Positions 27,600 to 35,140 of a stretch of DNA of 64,000 nucleotides are shown here, one piece after another; positions within the stretch are counted from its first letter, which is position 1; every line of letters starts with the position of its first letter. The position numbers and the translations under genes are program-made. This DNA is from an uncultured bacterium. GTDB lineage: Bacteria; Planctomycetota; UBA1135; GCA-002686595. The notes under the pieces were generated by a model. The model made no database searches, was not told the DNA's origin, and saw nothing but the letters and a program-made list of their open reading frames with translations. The stretch lies in NCBI GenBank assembly GCA_938075305.1, contig CALJGV010000010.1:248001-312000 (forward strand), in the 5' to 3' direction.

Positions 27600-29075
27600 A
27601 TGCGAGCGCTCCCTCTGATCACCCTCGGTGCCCTGATCGTCGGCGGCGCGGCCAGCGCTCCGGGGCGGGGCCCTGTTCCTGATCGCCTCGAGAAGTTCCC
27701 CGCCCTCGGGTTCGGCTTCGAGCGATCCGCACGGCTCGAGGCGCGCCAGGTGCCGCCGGAGAGCGAGGGACTCCTGCTGCTCTTCGCCACGAAGAACGCC
27801 CCCAATGATCGCGCGGCCCCATCTACCCACCGCGTCTACCGCATCGAGGGGCCCGGCGTCGACGTGACGGCGGTGCGGGCGTGGATCCAGGGGATCTTCC
27901 CGACGGCAGACGTGGCCGAGGAGCGTTCCGTGCGAGAGCGATACGGCCGGAGCCCGGTCCGGCTCACCGGGCGGTTCGTCGCGGAGGACCTGGAGCGCGG
28001 GCTGTTCGTCCACGCCTGGACCGGACCGGAGGACGCGATCGTCTTCGTGGGTGAGTGCGAGGAGGACCTCTATCGGCGTGAGCGACGCGCCTTCGACCGG
28101 GCGGCCTCGAGCTTCCGGTTCTTCGATCAGGCCGAGGTCGACCTCGGTCGTAAGCAGTGGGAGGCGCGCTACCGCCGGATCGTCCTGCCATTCGAGGCCG
28201 AGCGGATCGAGGTGGGCGTCAAGCTGGCCACGGGGTGGACGGTGACGGACACGGAGAGCGCCATGGTGCTGTTCCATGGGCCCGAACACTCCGCCGTGCC
28301 CCGACAGCTCGCCGACGCCATGATGGCCGTCCGCAGCCGGCTCAAGGCCGACCTGCCACCGGACCAGGAGGTCTCCTCGCTGGCCGTGGTCCGCATCTGC
28401 CGGGACCGGGGCGAGTACCTGACGTATGGCGGGAGCCCGGGGACCGTCGGATACTTCAACCCGAGTGTCGGCGAGCTCGTGCTCTACGACGCCCGCACGA
28501 ACCCGGAGGGGCCCATCCCCCTGGACCACCCGACGGCCCGGACGCTCTACCACGAGGTCTGTCACCAGTACCTGCACCAGACGATGAGCGCGGCGACCCC
28601 GCACACCTGGTTCGGGGAGGGGCTCGCGGAGTACTACGCGGGGGCCACCCTCCGGTCCGGCCGGGTCGTGGGCGTGGATCCGTTGGAGGGGAAGCGCGAG
28701 TACCTCCTGCGGCCTGACGTTCGCGCCCAGGTGCCGCCGCTCGGAGACCTCCTCACGATGTCTCAGTCCGCCTTCTACTCCCGCTCCGCCGTCTGTTACC
28801 CCTACAGCTACGCGCTCGTCCGGTTCCTCGAGACGAGTGACGTGGCCCGTGGCCGGCGGCTGTGGCGGGATCTGGTCGAGCGGTACCACGAGGGCCTCAG
28901 GGGCGCGTGGCGCGCCGAGGTCGAGGAGCTTGCCCTGCGTGGGATCTCGCGGCGGTCCTACGACGTGGCGGTGCGCCGGAGCCAGGAGCGCGCCCTCGAT
29001 ACCGCCTTGGAGGAGGTGGACGTGCCCGAGCTGGAGCGCGCGCTTTGGAGCTGGATCGCCCGGGGCGAGGGCTGA
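27600..29075 (+). CDS. Exported DUF1570/peptidase MA-like gluzincin
   Basis: A 491-residue protein with a signal peptide (LITLGALIVGGAASA). The C-terminal half has a zinc peptidase core: HEVCHQ within RTLYHEVCHQYLHQTM gives HExxH, and WFGEGLAEYYAGA supplies the third ligand Glu, the arrangement of the DUF1570/peptidase MA family. Upstream a degenerate domain (about 40-220) repeats similar beta-rich blocks and may bind substrate. SQSAFYSRSAVCYPYSYALVRF follows the zinc site, as in other members. The substrate is unknown; activity in the periplasm or outer membrane is likely. It is preceded by the TPR protein and convergent with the ABC exporter genes. Confidence 0.78.
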   Translation: MRALPLITLGALIVGGAASAPGRGPVPDRLEKFPALGFGFERSARLEARQVPPESEGLLLLFATKNAPNDRAAPSTHRVYRIEGPGVDVTAVRAWIQGIFPTADVAEERSVRERYGRSPVRLTGRFVAEDLERGLFVHAWTGPEDAIVFVGECEEDLYRRERRAFDRAASSFRFFDQAEVDLGRKQWEARYRRIVLPFEAERIEVGVKLATGWTVTDTESAMVLFHGPEHSAVPRQLADAMMAVRSRLKADLPPDQEVSSLAVVRICRDRGEYLTYGGSPGTVGYFNPSVGELVLYDARTNPEGPIPLDHPTARTLYHEVCHQYLHQTMSAATPHTWFGEGLAEYYAGATLRSGRVVGVDPLEGKREYLLRPDVRAQVPPLGDLLTMSQSAFYSRSAVCYPYSYALVRFLETSDVARGRRLWRDLVERYHEGLRGAWRAEVEELALRGISRRSYDVAVRRSQERALDTALEEVDVPELERALWSWIARGEG

Positions 29076-29100
29076 CCGTCCCGGTGGGGGCCTCCTTGCC

Positions 29101-29865
29101 TCAGGGGACGCGGCGTTGGAACGCCCGCAGAGAGAGACCGTAGGCGAAGGCGGTGCAGGCCAGCATGGGCGCGAGCAGCCGCCAGTCCATGGCGTCCTTG
29201 GTGATGATGCGCATGAACACCTTGATCTCCACGAGGCGGTAGAGGGAGTAGTGGGTGACCCCCTCCACGAGGTAGAGCGCGAAGACCATGACCGAGAGGA
29301 ACAGCATCACGAAGCTGATGCGCATGGGCTCCGAGCTCAGGCAGGACCACAGGAAGCTGACCGAGTAGATCGCCGCCAGGAACGCGCCCATGTGCAGCGA
29401 GCAGCGCATCAGGTCGGACATGTCCATGGTCTTGTCGAACATGCCCAGGAGCGCGGGGACCGTCGCGCTCGTGAGGAACACCGGCCCAATCACCACGAAG
29501 AGCCCGCCGAGCCAGCGCTCGGTCATGAGGCGCGTTCGGGAGACGGGTCGGGCCAGCCAGATCTCCATCGTGCCCCGGTGGGCCTCCCCCGCCACGCTGT
29601 TCGCCGCGAAGAGGACGGCGGCGGCGGTGCCCAGGGCGCTGCAGCCCTTGAAGAAGTGCTGGCCCACGATGTAACCCGACACGCCGAACTGGTCGACCTG
29701 GTCCACGAGGTCGCTCAGCATCTGGATCGGCGCGGCGATGGCCTTGATGGAGGGGAGGTTCTCCTCGAACGTCGGCCACCAGTAGACGGCGGCCACGAGC
29801 ATGATCTCCAGCACGACGAAGAAGCCGAGCCCGTAGGTGATGTAGCCCCGCGTGCCCTTGAACAT
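29101..29865 (-). CDS. ABC-2 type transporter permease
   Basis: A 254-residue integral membrane protein with six hydrophobic segments. The segment SVAGEAHRGTMEIWLARPVSRTRL is characteristic of ABC-2 permeases, where it follows the second membrane helix and contacts the ATPase. The ATG overlaps the ATPase stop codon by one base (TGATG), so both subunits are made from one transcript. The pair probably forms an exporter for a lipid, polysaccharide or drug. The substrate cannot be predicted. No separate periplasmic component is nearby. Confidence 0.85.
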   Translation of the reverse strand: MFKGTRGYITYGLGFFVVLEIMLVAAVYWWPTFEENLPSIKAIAAPIQMLSDLVDQVDQFGVSGYIVGQHFFKGCSALGTAAAVLFAANSVAGEAHRGTMEIWLARPVSRTRLMTERWLGGLFVVIGPVFLTSATVPALLGMFDKTMDMSDLMRCSLHMGAFLAAIYSVSFLWSCLSSEPMRISFVMLFLSVMVFALYLVEGVTHYSLYRLVEIKVFMRIITKDAMDWRLLAPMLACTAFAYGLSLRAFQRRVP

Positions 29866-30827
29866 CAGGTGCCCTCCACGCCGTACAGGGCCCGGTAGAG
29901 CTCACCCAGGGAGATCCGGCCGTGCTCGACGCTGGTGGGCGCCGGCAGGTCGGTGGCGGAGGCGAGGCGGCCGAGGAAGGTCCTCGGGTCGTCGCCTGAG
30001 AGCATGACGTTGACCCGGTCCTCGACCTCCTCGACGGACTCGACCCCCGGTCCCTGGAGGACCCCCGTGCTCCCTGGCGTCAGGGCGCCCGGAGCGAAGC
30101 GCAGGCGGACGAGCCGGCCGGCGCGCTGGCGGACCTCCTCGGAGCTCTCGTCCGCGACGACGCGGCCGGCGTTGAGGAAGACGAGCCGCTGGCACGACCT
30201 GTCCACCTCCCCGAGGTGGTGGGAGGAGAGCAGGATCGTCGTGCCGCGGGCGGCGTCGGCGTCGATGAGGTCGAGGACCTGGCTCCGCTTGGCCGGGTCG
30301 AGGCCCTCGCTGATCTCGTCGAGGATCCTCACCCGGACGTCGGGGGCGATGGCGGCGGCGAAGAGCAGCTGGCGCTTCATGCCGTGGCTGTACTCGCGGA
30401 CCCGGCGGTCCAGGGGCAGGCCGAGCTCCCCGGCGATGGAGCGCGCCCGATCCAGGCTCCCGTCGCTTCGGCCGCGCAGGAGGAAGCGAAGGTGCTCCCC
30501 GCCCTTCAACTCGCTGTAGAGGTGGAGCTCCCCGGGGGCATACGTGGTGCGCCGGCGGATCTCGAGGCCGTCTCCCGCCATCGGGACCCCGTCCACGGTG
30601 ACCTGGCCCTGCTGGAGGGGGACGAGACCGGTGAGCAATCGCATCAGGGTGCTCTTGCCGCTCCCATTGGGACCGAGGAGCCCGACCACGCCACCCGCCG
30701 GGATCTCAACGTCGATCCGGTGGAGCGCCTGGGTGGCCCCGAAGCGATGTTCGAGTCCGTGGACGGACACGCCTCCAGCACCTGCGCGGGACGGTGACGC
30801 GGCCTGTGTGGGAGCGAGCGCGGACAT
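29865..30827 (-). CDS. ABC-2 type transporter ATP-binding protein
   Basis: A 320-residue ATPase. Walker A is GLLGPNGSGKSTLM near residue 50, the signature motif is the YSHGMKRQ variant common in ABC-2 exporters, and Walker B with the catalytic Glu is VRILDEISEGLDP. The switch His is in LLSSHHLGEVD. The last 90 residues form a mixed C-terminal domain typical of this class. It is the first cistron, followed by its permease. The -10-like box TAACCT is 9 nt before the ATG and overlaps the -10 box of the divergent kinase gene. Confidence 0.92.
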   Translation of the reverse strand: MSALAPTQAASPSRAGAGGVSVHGLEHRFGATQALHRIDVEIPAGGVVGLLGPNGSGKSTLMRLLTGLVPLQQGQVTVDGVPMAGDGLEIRRRTTYAPGELHLYSELKGGEHLRFLLRGRSDGSLDRARSIAGELGLPLDRRVREYSHGMKRQLLFAAAIAPDVRVRILDEISEGLDPAKRSQVLDLIDADAARGTTILLSSHHLGEVDRSCQRLVFLNAGRVVADESSEEVRQRAGRLVRLRFAPGALTPGSTGVLQGPGVESVEEVEDRVNVMLSGDDPRTFLGRLASATDLPAPTSVEHGRISLGELYRALYGVEGT

Positions 30828-30835
30828 GGGCGTGG

Positions 30836-30842
30836 TAGGTTA
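30836..30842. promoter_or_regulatory. Overlapping divergent -10-like boxes (TAGGTT / TAACCT)
   Basis: The 7-bp run TAGGTTA gives TAGGTT on the plus strand (7 nt before the GTG at 30849) and TAACCT on the minus strand (9 nt before the ATG at 30827). The two promoters would use the same bases. Confidence 0.45.
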
Positions 30843-30848
30843 CTCAGC

Positions 30849-31673
30849 GTGACACCCGTTCGCATCCTGGAGGAGATGAAACGTGACGCCCTCGGCGCCG
30901 TTCATCGGGTCGCGCTCGAGCGCGCGGGTGAACCACGCGAGGAGTTCGTGCTTCGCTCCCTCGACGGCTGGTGGATCCTGCGCCCCTTGGCCGGTTTCCT
31001 CGCGAGGCGGGAGCAGCGCGCGATGGCGGCGTGTCGGGAGGGAAGCGTCCCGCGCTTCGAGCGGGCCCCCCGACTGAGCGACGAGGAGCGGGCCACCCTC
31101 GGCCGGTTGCCAGGTGTCCGCGCACGGGAGCTGTTCACCCGCCCCTTCGTCGCGGGCGCTCCGTTGCACCGGGCGGAGCGCCTGCCCCTGGACTTCTTCG
31201 ACCTCCTCGAGTCGGCGGTGCGGGACCTGCATGCGGTGGGGGTCTGTCACAACGACCTGCACAAGGAGCAGAACGTGGTCGTCGAGGTCTCCGGCCGGCC
31301 GAGGCTCATCGACTTCCAGCTGGCGAGCGTGCACCCGAGGCGCTCGGGGAGGCGCTTCGACGCGCGCTGCGGGGATGACCTGCGGCACGTCCAGAAGCTC
31401 CGTCGCCGCTACACCATGAACGGTCGCGGGCCCGCGGAGATCGGGGTCCCGGAGTCCTCGAGGATCCGCAGGCGGGGCCTGGCTCTCCTCTGGCGGCGGA
31501 CCGGGAAGCCGGCCTACCTCTTCATCACCCGCGGCCTACTCGGGACCAAGGACGGGGAGGACCGGCGCCCCTTCGAGGGGCCCTGGCCGCGCTGGGACGG
31601 ACCGCTCGAGGCCGCGAAGGAGGTCCCCTCGGCCCATCGGGTCACGGGCGGCACCGAGCCAGGAAGTTCCTGA
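30849..31673 (+). CDS. Small kinase, LPS-kinase (Kdo/WaaP)/RIO-like
   Basis: A 274-residue protein with a protein-kinase-like fold. The catalytic loop GVCHNDLHKEQNVVV has the HxDxxxxN pattern, and the metal-binding motif is LIDFQLASV, DFQ in place of DFG. The pattern fits small lipopolysaccharide or RIO-type kinases better than Ser/Thr kinases, since no glycine-rich loop or APE motif is evident. A basic C-terminal region (RIRRRGLALLWRRTGKP) may bind the membrane. It starts at GTG 30849. Its 3' end overlaps the convergent pabA-like gene by 32 bp. The substrate is inferred only from family resemblance. Confidence 0.6.
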   Translation: MTPVRILEEMKRDALGAVHRVALERAGEPREEFVLRSLDGWWILRPLAGFLARREQRAMAACREGSVPRFERAPRLSDEERATLGRLPGVRARELFTRPFVAGAPLHRAERLPLDFFDLLESAVRDLHAVGVCHNDLHKEQNVVVEVSGRPRLIDFQLASVHPRRSGRRFDARCGDDLRHVQKLRRRYTMNGRGPAEIGVPESSRIRRRGLALLWRRTGKPAYLFITRGLLGTKDGEDRRPFEGPWPRWDGPLEAAKEVPSAHRVTGGTEPGSS

Positions 31674-32220
31674 ACACCGTCTCGCCGCCTTCGGCGCAGA
31701 GGATGGACTCGGGGTGGCCCTGCAAGCCGAAGAGCGGGCGGGAGGTATGGCGCAGGCCCGCCACGTCACCGTCGTCGGTGCGCGCGGTCACGATGAGCTC
31801 CTCGGGGAGGTCCACCTCGTCCACCACGAGCGAGTTGTAGCGCGCCATCGGAAAGGGCGAGGGCAGGCCTGACAGCAGGCCGTCTCCTTCGTGATGGATG
31901 GGGCGCAAGGCCCCGTGGACGAGCTCGGTGGCTCCGCGGATGCGGGCGCCGAAGGAGCTCGCCAGGGCCTGATGCCCCAGACACACCCCAAGGACGGGGG
32001 GGGCGTCGGGGCAGGCCGCCGCCTGGCGGAAGATCTCCTCGCTGCAACCCGCTGCGTGGGGTTCGCCCGGACCGGGCCCCACCAGGACCCCTGCCGCGCC
32101 CATGACGTCCTCCGCGCGGGCGCTGCGGCCGTCGAAGACCCTGACCTCCGCGCCCAGCCTCTGGAGGGCCTGGACGAGGTTGTAGGTGAACGAATCGCGA
32201 TTGTCGACGAGGGCGATCAC
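31642..32220 (-). CDS. pabA: Glutamine amidotransferase, PabA/TrpG type
   Basis: A 192-residue class-I glutamine amidotransferase that supplies ammonia to anthranilate or aminodeoxychorismate synthase. It has NRDSFTYNLVQAL at the N-terminus, the oxyanion block VGPGPGEP, the nucleophile Cys in LGVCLGHQALA and the His/Glu of GLQGHPESI. PabA and TrpG cannot be separated by sequence alone and often one protein serves both pathways. The window ends inside a pabB/trpE-like gene 31 kb away. The start is GTG at 32220, six nt after TACAAC. The 3' end overlaps the kinase gene on the other strand. Confidence 0.88.
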   Translation of the reverse strand: MIALVDNRDSFTYNLVQALQRLGAEVRVFDGRSARAEDVMGAAGVLVGPGPGEPHAAGCSEEIFRQAAACPDAPPVLGVCLGHQALASSFGARIRGATELVHGALRPIHHEGDGLLSGLPSPFPMARYNSLVVDEVDLPEELIVTARTDDGDVAGLRHTSRPLFGLQGHPESILCAEGGETVFRNFLARCRP

Positions 32221-32226
32221 CGGCCT

Positions 32227-32232
32227 GTTGTA
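32227..32232 (-). promoter_or_regulatory. -10-like box TACAAC for pabA
   Basis: On the minus strand TACAAC lies 6 nt before the GTG at 32220, a near match to TATAAT lacking the final T. Confidence 0.3.
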
Positions 32233-32251
32233 CCCCGCGGCGGCGAGGGTC

Positions 32252-32257
32252 TATCGT
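32252..32257 (+). promoter_or_regulatory. -10-like box TATCGT for trkA
   Basis: TATCGT lies 8 nt before the trkA ATG at 32266, divergent from the pabA box. Confidence 0.45.
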
Positions 32258-32265
32258 TCCGGTCG

Positions 32266-33606
32266 ATGAACATCGTCATCATTGGCGCAGGAGAGGTCGG
32301 CCAGCACCTCGCCGGGGTCCTCAGCCGCGAGGAGCACTCGGTGACCGTGGTCGACCCGGACCCCTCAAAGTCGCGCAAGCTCACCGAGTCCCTCGACGTG
32401 CAGTCGCTCGTCGGGGACGGGACCCGTGCCGACACGCTCACGGACGCGGGCGCGTCCGCGGCGGACCTCGTCATCGCGGTGTCCGACGACGACCGGGTCA
32501 ACATGCTCACGAGCGTGATCGCCAAGAAGCTGGGCGCGAGCCGGGTCATCATCCGGCTGAAGGACACCCGGGTGCTGGCGGACTACCGCTACTTCTACAA
32601 GGACGCCCTTGGCTTTGACGTGGTCCTCTCCACCGAGGAGCTGGTCGCTGAGGAGCTCCTCGGCCTCGTCCGCGAGCGCCACGCGCTGGAGGTCCAGAGC
32701 TTCGCCAACGGTCAGGTCCAGCTCCGACGCCTTCGGCTCAAGGAGGACTCGGAGCTCACGCGCAAGCCGCTCGGGGAGCTCAAGCTTCCCTCGGGAGTGC
32801 TCGTCACCGCCGTCTCCCGTGGCGGCCAGCTGACGGTCCCCTCGGGCGGCGACGAGCTCCTGGGCAAGGACCAGATCTACGTGCTGGGGTCCTCCAAGGA
32901 CCTGGACCAGTTCGAGCGGCTCGCCGGGGAGAAGGTGGAGTGGAAGCGCTCGGTGGTGATCATGGGGGCCGGCGGCATCGGGCGTGAGATCGCCCTGCGG
33001 CTCTCGGGTGAGCCGGGGATCAGCGTCCTCGTGCTCGAGCAGGACCCCGCGCGTGCGCGGGCTCTGGACCTCGAGTGCTCGGGGGACCTGACGGTGATGG
33101 TGGGGGACGCGACGGACATGATGCTCTTCCGCGAGGAGCGCCTCGCCGACGCGAGCGTGTTCGTCGCGACGACCCACGACGACGAGGACAACATCGTGGC
33201 GTGCCAGCTGGCCAAGTCCTTCGGCGTCCAGCGCACCGTGGCGCTGGTGGAGAAGTCCTCCTACGCGGAGATCTTCGACCTGCTCGAGGGCGTGGACCAG
33301 GCCATCAGCCCGCGCATGATGTGCGCCAAGGCCATCACCCGCCTCGCGCGGGCGGGCTCACCCCGCGCCATCGCTGCCATCGGTAACGGGCAGGCGGAGG
33401 TCATCGAGCTCGAGGTGGGCCTGAAGGAGCCGGTGAAGCTCCGCAAGCTCGGGCTCCCGAGCGGCGTCGTCCTCGGCGCTCTCGTCCGGGACAACGCGGT
33501 GACGATCCCCGGGGGCGAGACCCTTGTTCGCCCGGGTGACACCGCGGTCGTATTCGCCATGAGGGAGTCTCTCGAGGAGGCCGAGCGCGCGCTCGGGGCC
33601 CTCTGA
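32266..33606 (+). CDS. trkA: Trk potassium uptake regulator TrkA
   Basis: A 446-residue cytoplasmic protein that gates the TrkH potassium channel according to nucleotide binding. It contains two tandem RCK_N/TrkA_C units. The first Rossmann motif is VIIGAGEVGQHLA at residue 3, with VVDPDPSK ending the second strand. The second is VVIMGAGGIGREIA near residue 228, with LVLEQDPARA. TrkA_C modules follow each (ELTRKPLGELKLPSGV and EPVKLRKLGLPSGV). The length is typical of bacterial TrkA. trkH follows 37 bp downstream, so the two form an operon. Confidence 0.95.
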   Translation: MNIVIIGAGEVGQHLAGVLSREEHSVTVVDPDPSKSRKLTESLDVQSLVGDGTRADTLTDAGASAADLVIAVSDDDRVNMLTSVIAKKLGASRVIIRLKDTRVLADYRYFYKDALGFDVVLSTEELVAEELLGLVRERHALEVQSFANGQVQLRRLRLKEDSELTRKPLGELKLPSGVLVTAVSRGGQLTVPSGGDELLGKDQIYVLGSSKDLDQFERLAGEKVEWKRSVVIMGAGGIGREIALRLSGEPGISVLVLEQDPARARALDLECSGDLTVMVGDATDMMLFREERLADASVFVATTHDDEDNIVACQLAKSFGVQRTVALVEKSSYAEIFDLLEGVDQAISPRMMCAKAITRLARAGSPRAIAAIGNGQAEVIELEVGLKEPVKLRKLGLPSGVVLGALVRDNAVTIPGGETLVRPGDTAVVFAMRESLEEAERALGAL

Positions 33607-33643
33607 CCGTGGAGCGCGTGCGATCCGGGGCGGAGGGCCGCCG

Positions 33644-35140
33644 ATGAACTTCCGCGCGGTGGCTCAGATGCTGGGCGTGGTCCTGCTCCTGATGGCCGGC
33701 TTCCTCGCGATCCCCGCCGCGGTCGGCCTCGGGATGGGGGAGCGCGGCCCGGCGGCGAGCTGCGGGCTCGCGGCCTTCGTGACGGCGCTCGTGGGTGGGC
33801 TGGTGACCTTCGTCTTCCGCGGGGCCACCCGCGACTCCAGGAAGCGCCCCGATTACTTCCGGCGCGAGGGGCTCGCCACCGTGGGCCTGGCCTGGCTGGT
33901 CGGCGGCGTGGCCGGCGCCCTCCCCTTCCTCTTCGAGGGGACCATCACGTCCCCGGTCGATGCCTTCTTCGAGTCGGTCTCTGGGCTCACCACCACGGGG
34001 TCGACCGTGATGACGGCGGAGCAGATCGACACCATGCCGGCGGCCATCGCGTTCTGGCGGAGCTTTAGCCAGTGGCTGGGCGGCTTCGGGATCGTGATGG
34101 TCTTCGTGGTGATCTTCCCGACCGGTGGCCGCAGCCTCTTCCGCTCCGAGGTCCCTGGCATCTCCCGTGAGGCCGGGCACCAGCGCGTGCGCGACGCGGC
34201 GCTGATGCTCATGAAGATCTACCTCGTCCTCAGCGTGGCGCTGCTGGCGACGCTGATGGTCATCGGGCTCCCGGTCTTCGACGCGGTCATCCACACCTTC
34301 ACGACGGTGGCGAACGGTGGCTTCTCGAACCACTCCGAGAGCATCGCCTTCTTCGACTCGGCTCTGGTGGAGGCGGTGCTGGTCGTGTTCATGCTTCTCT
34401 CCGCGCTGAACTTCGCGATCTACGACACGCTGATCCGCGTGGGGCCGCGCCCGGCGTGGCGCAAGCTGGTGGGCAGCCTCGAGGTGCGCCTGTTCCTCGG
34501 TCTGGTCGTGGGGGCCTCGCTGCTCATTGGCGCGGTCCTCTGGTCCTCGGGCAGCGGCGGCGACGCGGGGGATGCGACCGGTCCCCTGGGGGCCCTTCGC
34601 CTGAGCGTCTTCCACGTGGTGTGCCAGATCACCACGGCGGGCTACGCGACGGCTGACTTCGACGCCTGGCCGCAGTTCTGTCGCATCGCCCTGATGCTGC
34701 TCGCCTTCTGCGGGGCCTGCGCCGGTTCCACCAGCGGGGGCCTGAAGCTGGTGCGGCTGGCGATCGTGTTCAAGGCGGCGCTCGTTGCCGTGCGCCGCTT
34801 CGCGCGGCCCCGGGTGATCCACCGCATCCGGATCGACGGGCAGGCCCTCGACGAGTCCGTGGTCGCGTCCGTCACGGGTTACCTCGTGCTTTGGCTCATG
34901 GTCTTCGTGGCCGCGACGACGCTACTCGGCGCCTACGGCATCGACCTCGAGACGAGCTCCACCGCGGTCCTGGTGACCCTCAACAACGTGGGGCCGGGGC
35001 TCGGCGGGGTCGGCCCGACCATGAACTTCGGGGACCTCCCCGGGGCGGCCAAGTTCGCCCTCTCCATCTGCATGGTGCTCGGCCGGCTCGAGTTCTACGC
35101 CCTCGTCGCGCTCCTCATGCCGACCTTCTGGCACCGCTGA
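33644..35140 (+). CDS. trkH: Trk potassium uptake channel TrkH
   Basis: A 498-residue inner-membrane potassium channel subunit with about ten transmembrane helices and four selectivity-filter loops: LTTTGSTVM, TVANGGFSN, ITTAGYATADF and NNVGPGLGG, each holding the conserved Gly. DAFFESVSGL and FWRSFSQWLGGFGIVM are further TrkH signatures, and the latter forms the region near the cytoplasmic gate. A conserved Arg in LGRLEFY near the end is also present. A GGAGG Shine-Dalgarno lies upstream of the ATG. It forms a complete Trk uptake system with trkA. A 9-bp hairpin follows the stop. Confidence 0.95.
   Translation: MNFRAVAQMLGVVLLLMAGFLAIPAAVGLGMGERGPAASCGLAAFVTALVGGLVTFVFRGATRDSRKRPDYFRREGLATVGLAWLVGGVAGALPFLFEGTITSPVDAFFESVSGLTTTGSTVMTAEQIDTMPAAIAFWRSFSQWLGGFGIVMVFVVIFPTGGRSLFRSEVPGISREAGHQRVRDAALMLMKIYLVLSVALLATLMVIGLPVFDAVIHTFTTVANGGFSNHSESIAFFDSALVEAVLVVFMLLSALNFAIYDTLIRVGPRPAWRKLVGSLEVRLFLGLVVGASLLIGAVLWSSGSGGDAGDATGPLGALRLSVFHVVCQITTAGYATADFDAWPQFCRIALMLLAFCGACAGSTSGGLKLVRLAIVFKAALVAVRRFARPRVIHRIRIDGQALDESVVASVTGYLVLWLMVFVAATTLLGAYGIDLETSSTAVLVTLNNVGPGLGGVGPTMNFGDLPGAAKFALSICMVLGRLEFYALVALLMPTFWHR

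Follow-up and report, generated by a model that had tools for sequence, protein, structure and literature searches.

The original study of bidirectional promoters reportedly dates from 2021. Promoters of this kind are known from E. coli and Salmonella through the work of Warman, Grainger and colleagues (PMC12825309, PMC10268837), and the latter paper defines them by divergent transcription starts 7–25 bp apart with overlapping −10 elements. The former gives 18 bp as the commonest start spacing and reports that, in E. coli, substantial activation of one direction could repress the partner. Leaderless genes are a second point of reference. In high-GC bacteria they carry TANNNT about 12 bp before the start codon, as described in the main text of PMC3160421, and in Deinococcus-Thermus the −10 region lies adjacent to open reading frames and the mRNA is leaderless (PMC12340547).

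The main text of PMC3160421 mentions neither Planctomycetes nor Pirellula nor a divergent arrangement, and that of PMC12340547 makes no mention of bidirectional, divergent or symmetric promoters. A literature search on leaderless and bidirectional divergent promoters returned nothing on topic by title, within a coverage that lies mostly outside subscription journals. Further, a search for leaderless promoters or starts in Planctomycetes yielded work on Sinorhizobium only, and none of the papers found on start-site mapping named Planctomycetes. The locus described here, in a genome of the Planctomycetota with 70% GC, is probably a real, conserved and functional two-way promoter, judging from its sequence and that of its relatives.

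A divergent gene pair and its intergenic box

The window, a stretch of 64,000 nucleotides of this genome, contains two genes arranged head to head. On the reverse strand, an ABC transporter ATPase gene of 320 aa (29865–30827) begins with ATG (CAT at 30825–30827) and is abutted by a codirectional ABC-2 type membrane subunit gene of 254 aa (29101–29865; Pfam ABC2_membrane_2, E 5.7e-11), with which it forms a putative operon. On the forward strand, a kinase-like gene of 274 aa (30849–31673) begins with GTG at 30849–30851. The ATPase frame matches Pfam ABC_tran with an E value of 4.7e-22, and its top NCBIfam models are DrrA and GldA, both under the cut-off. For the kinase-like protein, the match to Pfam Pkinase (E 3.4e-4) is under the Pfam cut-off, a match to APH is also weak, and the best NCBIfam model, the PRK09188 Ser/Thr protein kinase (E 1.1e-31), is likewise under its cut-off. 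Both frames are kept in relatives and are real genes. The closest named record is the Planctomycetota MAG contig JADHOC010000018, whose kinase shares 95% identity; the next-best named matches include Planctomycetes bacterium Poly30 (locus L055). At its 3' end, the kinase-like gene overlaps a convergent glutamine amidotransferase gene (31642–32220, reverse strand) by 32 bp, 31642–31673.

The start codons were examined by comparison with relatives. The ATPase ATG (30827) is preserved in all five genomes compared, namely the window genome and loci L051–L054; a GTG at 30770, which ranks top by codon score, is an alternative later start. Over codons 2–19 of the ATPase gene, changes favour third positions in L052 and L053. 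No such lean is seen in L051, where changes are few, nor in L054, where the N-terminus differs in length and an ungapped count means little. For the kinase-like gene, an alignment of six rows from the genus shows the residues RI..E.K.D close to the N-terminus. A downstream in-frame ATG at 30876 was considered as the kinase start and judged unlikely because the RI..E residues ahead of it are conserved in the genus and because GGAGG lies only 2 nt ahead. The sequence in question, GGAGGAG at 30869–30878, stands just 5' of this ATG within the kinase gene, and its spacing is too short for a normal ribosome-binding site.

The two start codons are separated by 21 bp (30828–30848), within which lies TAGGTTA (30836–30842). 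This heptamer reads TANNNT on either strand and thus holds two hexamers that overlap by five bases: TAGGTT on the forward strand (30836–30841), 7 nt ahead of the kinase GTG, and TAACCT on the reverse strand (30842–30837), 9 nt ahead of the ATPase ATG. The original prediction had given exactly these coordinates and spacings. The putative −10 positions on opposite strands thus overlap as in the described bidirectional promoters, and the gap holds no other TANNNT. If the box drives both genes, a gap of 21 bp permits only leaderless or near-leaderless 5' ends.

Measured against the E. coli consensus, neither hexamer is stronger than the other, and both are weak, each agreeing with TATAAT at just three of six positions. 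A generic sigma-70 consensus scan of 28000–34000 returned no promoter-like site, and no TTGACA-like −35 at 16–18 nt accompanies the box. With A at 0.157 and T at 0.146 of the local bases, TANNNTA is expected by chance at about 5e-4 per placement, or about 0.2% across the three placements that would fit; a chance match is ruled out by conservation and by the control motifs described below. Support for the box is comparative, residing in its position, symmetry and conservation and in the genome-wide enrichment of TANNNT at such a distance, rather than in consensus strength.

This enrichment was measured in 452 kb of the same contig, with 304 genes from our own codon-score caller. TANNNT ends at a distance of 6, 7 or 9 nt from the predicted start in 6, 6 and 5 cases, respectively, while each of the other distances between 0 and 44 nt has 0–3 cases; the window's kinase is one of these 17. 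Counted from its first T, the motif thus stands about 12 bp before the start and above background, as in the described leaderless genes, and the peak is best regarded, by analogy with other high-GC bacteria, as the mark of leaderless promoters. Both hexamers in the window therefore occupy usual −10 positions of the leaderless type. With other candidate starts included, the same sample holds 31 further sites of this type, in which neither a −35 signal nor a TTG peak is seen, and only one of the 31 has an A directly after TANNNT.

Conservation in the genus and the wider family

Within the genus, TANNNTA stands ahead of the kinase gene in all nine genomes, as TAGGTTA in four, TAACGTA in two, and TACGTTA, TACGGTA and TACCGTA in one each, so that the four outer bases are constant and the middle bases vary. 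The base after TANNNT, which creates the reverse hexamer, is A in every one of the nine orthologues. The outer GTA...TAC is symmetric in seven (L001–L005, L008 and L009). Conservation of the box among relatives, on which the original prediction depended, is thus borne out, and conservation of the gap only in part: it is exactly 21 bp in five of the nine genomes (L001–L005). Three further genus genomes (L055–L057) have shared boxes in gaps of 22, 22 and 25 bp, and in L058 no divergent start was found at leaderless distance.

The wider comparison covered 81 kinase loci of the family (80 named loci and that of the window), of which 73 have an identifiable kinase N-terminus. The other eight were left out before counting since the N-terminal anchor was not found; one of them, L063, bears TACGGTA by eye. 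The 73 include one unsound row, L091, which has a probably wrong anchor, a very long branch in the kinase tree and a GDSL-type gene, yet is labelled ABC in the counts. TANNNT occurs 5–10 nt ahead of the kinase start in 35 of the 73 loci (2–12 for eight control motifs). Of the 60 loci where a divergent ABC or GDSL-type gene was found, 34 have it 5–11 nt ahead of that gene's start (controls 0–10). A single TANNNT box is common to both starts in 10 of the 73 loci, and in none for each of the eight control motifs. The proposal that both genes use the same −10 bases is well supported by these counts, as well as by the enrichment of TANNNT placement in the genome and the persistence of box and geometry. 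The counts overstate independence because the loci are related, and entire clades of the kinase tree show one box state.

A close divergent neighbour, defined by a start no more than 150 nt away from the conserved kinase motif, is present at 52 of the 73 kinase loci (ABC in 43, GDSL-type in 9). The A after TANNNT follows this arrangement: among kinase boxes whose close divergent neighbour lacks a separate box, 20 of 21 carry it, compared with two of six whose close neighbour owns one and one of eight without a close divergent neighbour. At wider gaps separate boxes can occur, for example TACGAT for the ABC gene and TAGAGT for the kinase gene in L089, or TAGCAT and TATCGT in L094 and L113. The A is not in itself proof of leaderless sharing because genomes with more distant ABC starts retain it. 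In L058, L061, L062, L066, L068–L070, L078, L079 and L092, TANNNTA is present and no divergent TANNNT-boxed start was found at leaderless distance; there, the box would give a leader or serve the kinase only.

In nine other genomes the two starts flank GAGAATA (TATTCTC on the opposite strand), so that GAGAAT on the forward strand coincides with TATTCT on the reverse. In every one of them, 8 nt separate TATTCT from the divergent ATG; GAGAAT is a weak forward-strand −10. As GAGAATA was added after inspection, it is counted apart from the 10 shared TANNNT boxes. The gene adjoining the box is ABC in two of the nine and GDSL-type in seven (L064, L090, L097, L099, L101, L103 and L128), where it lies upstream of the kinase gene; in six of these seven, an ABC gene follows behind the GDSL-type gene on the same strand, about 1.3–1.6 kb away. 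The GDSL-type call rests on Pfam PF13472 for L128 and on similarity for the remaining proteins. In a related locus, L115, TATTCT precedes a GDSL-type ATG by 8 nt and there is no GAGAAT within the distance allowed on the kinase side; this locus is left out of the shared count.

A genome-wide class of shared-box pairs is not claimed. In the window's own genome (G000), a raw search for start codons on both sides of TANNNTA gave three matches at two places against two for a reversed-pattern control, which is no enrichment, and in 81 family genomes it gave 452 matches against 1008, with the control count at least equal to the pattern count in 65 of the 81; this control is unmatched for composition or codon effects. 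Among the part of the matches examined in nine genus genomes, open reading frames of at least 150 aa lie on both sides of 8 of 22 TANNNTA loci, compared with none of 25 for TTNNNAA and one of 23 for ATNNNAT control cores. No class follows from this since the eight loci represent no more than two orthologous gene pairs and the matches examined were a subset.

A second pair of this design joins a sulfatase (PF00884, E 2.9e-36) to a divergent gene of 442–448 aa with unknown function. The two are 18 bp apart around TAGGCTA in G002, G005 and G008 (L143, L148 and L137), with the G002 copy at L143:1501–1524. In G003 (L147) the match lies close to the contig end, and in G000 (L207) the contig stops before the start of the sulfatase gene.

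Probable two-way transcription and its alternatives

On these data, we put at roughly 0.8 the probability that TAGGTTA acts as the −10 of a bidirectional housekeeping-type promoter that lacks a −35 and yields two mRNAs, both leaderless or nearly so. RNA polymerase would melt the same bases in either orientation, and two polymerases would presumably not occupy the box simultaneously. Toward the kinase gene, transcription would start at or within about one base of the GTG, and toward the ABC operon at or within about four bases of the ATG, which would leave both transcripts leaderless or nearly so. The divergent transcription starts are thus predicted to lie 18–22 bp apart.

The box could instead be the −10 for the kinase only, with an unseen promoter driving the ABC operon and near-symmetry producing the reverse hexamer as a by-product. 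Such an arrangement would account for a kinase-side distance of 6–10 nt that is maintained family-wide while the ABC start lies farther from the box in several TANNNTA genomes, and the ABC promoter could conceivably lie farther back, within the kinase gene. However, the A after TANNNT that creates the reverse hexamer is rare among the other leaderless-type boxes sampled from this genome (1/31) but fixed in the genus at this site, TANNNT stands at leaderless distance before ABC or GDSL-type starts in 34 of 60 loci, and in the wider gaps of L089, L094 and L113 a separate TANNNT box precedes the ABC gene, whereas the 21-bp gap offers no other. That the box serves the kinase gene alone is unlikely. 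Less probable by far is an operator role, in which the near-palindrome GTAGGTTAC would be bound by a DNA-binding regulator instead of forming a promoter element. Seven of the nine genus genomes do have a symmetric outer GTA...TAC, but the box stands as far from both start codons as a leaderless −10 does, a non-palindromic GAGAATA takes the place at similar spacing in other genera, and Pfam finds no DNA-binding regulator in either paired gene.

A different matter is what a two-way promoter would do. The original prediction had added that sharing could make the genes mutually exclusive or balance them by orientation, and the box could have been conserved as a regulatory switch that imposes exclusion or fixes the ratio of kinase to exporter. 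Steric exclusion at any one moment is expected at a shared −10, a close divergent ABC or GDSL-type gene at 52 of 73 kinase loci suggests linkage, and in E. coli a strongly activated direction can repress its partner (PMC12825309). In the same source, however, none of the five bidirectional promoters tested had enough basal activity for polymerases to compete, and for mutual exclusion to be strong one direction would have to be highly active, which is not assumed here. Tight coupling is not required because in some relatives the boxes are separate or the partner is not close, and compactness alone could maintain a shared box. We regard a switch as rather improbable. Of similarly low probability is a family-wide coupling device, in which a 7-bp box framed by two starts would set the product ratio and, for that reason, two-way leaderless transcription at this kinase gene would have been kept despite a changing neighbour (ABC, or GDSL-type and then ABC) and a changing box (TANNNTA or GAGAATA).

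Comparison with known promoters

Read as a two-way promoter, the locus is probably an additional example of a known promoter kind, found in Planctomycetota and in a compact leaderless form. It would be a minimal case, consisting of two start codons, 21 bp, one 7-bp box and barely any leaders, with no visible −35. Owing to this minimal layout, the question of whether −10 sharing couples two genes is testable by single-base changes. The locus and its relatives also provide comparative evidence for leaderless, TANNNT-driven genes in Planctomycetota.

The leaderless genes of PMC3160421, as its main text presents them, share with this locus a TANNNT at similar distance in a high-GC genome; unlike those genes, here one box would serve two leaderless genes. 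Similarly, the −10 beside the start codon and the leaderless mRNA, the latter predicted here, recall Deinococcus-Thermus (PMC12340547). With the bidirectional promoters of E. coli and Salmonella, the locus has in common a single −10 read on both strands and a predicted start spacing of 18–22 bp, within the 7–25 bp of the definition; TANNNTA with 7 bp on each side would itself give, by arithmetic, a spacing of 18 bp. It differs from them in its predicted leaderless or near-leaderless transcripts, in having no visible −35 and in start codons that frame the promoter. Finally, the definition in E. coli and Salmonella is founded on mapped starts, whereas the likeness of the planctomycete locus is one of sequence layout.
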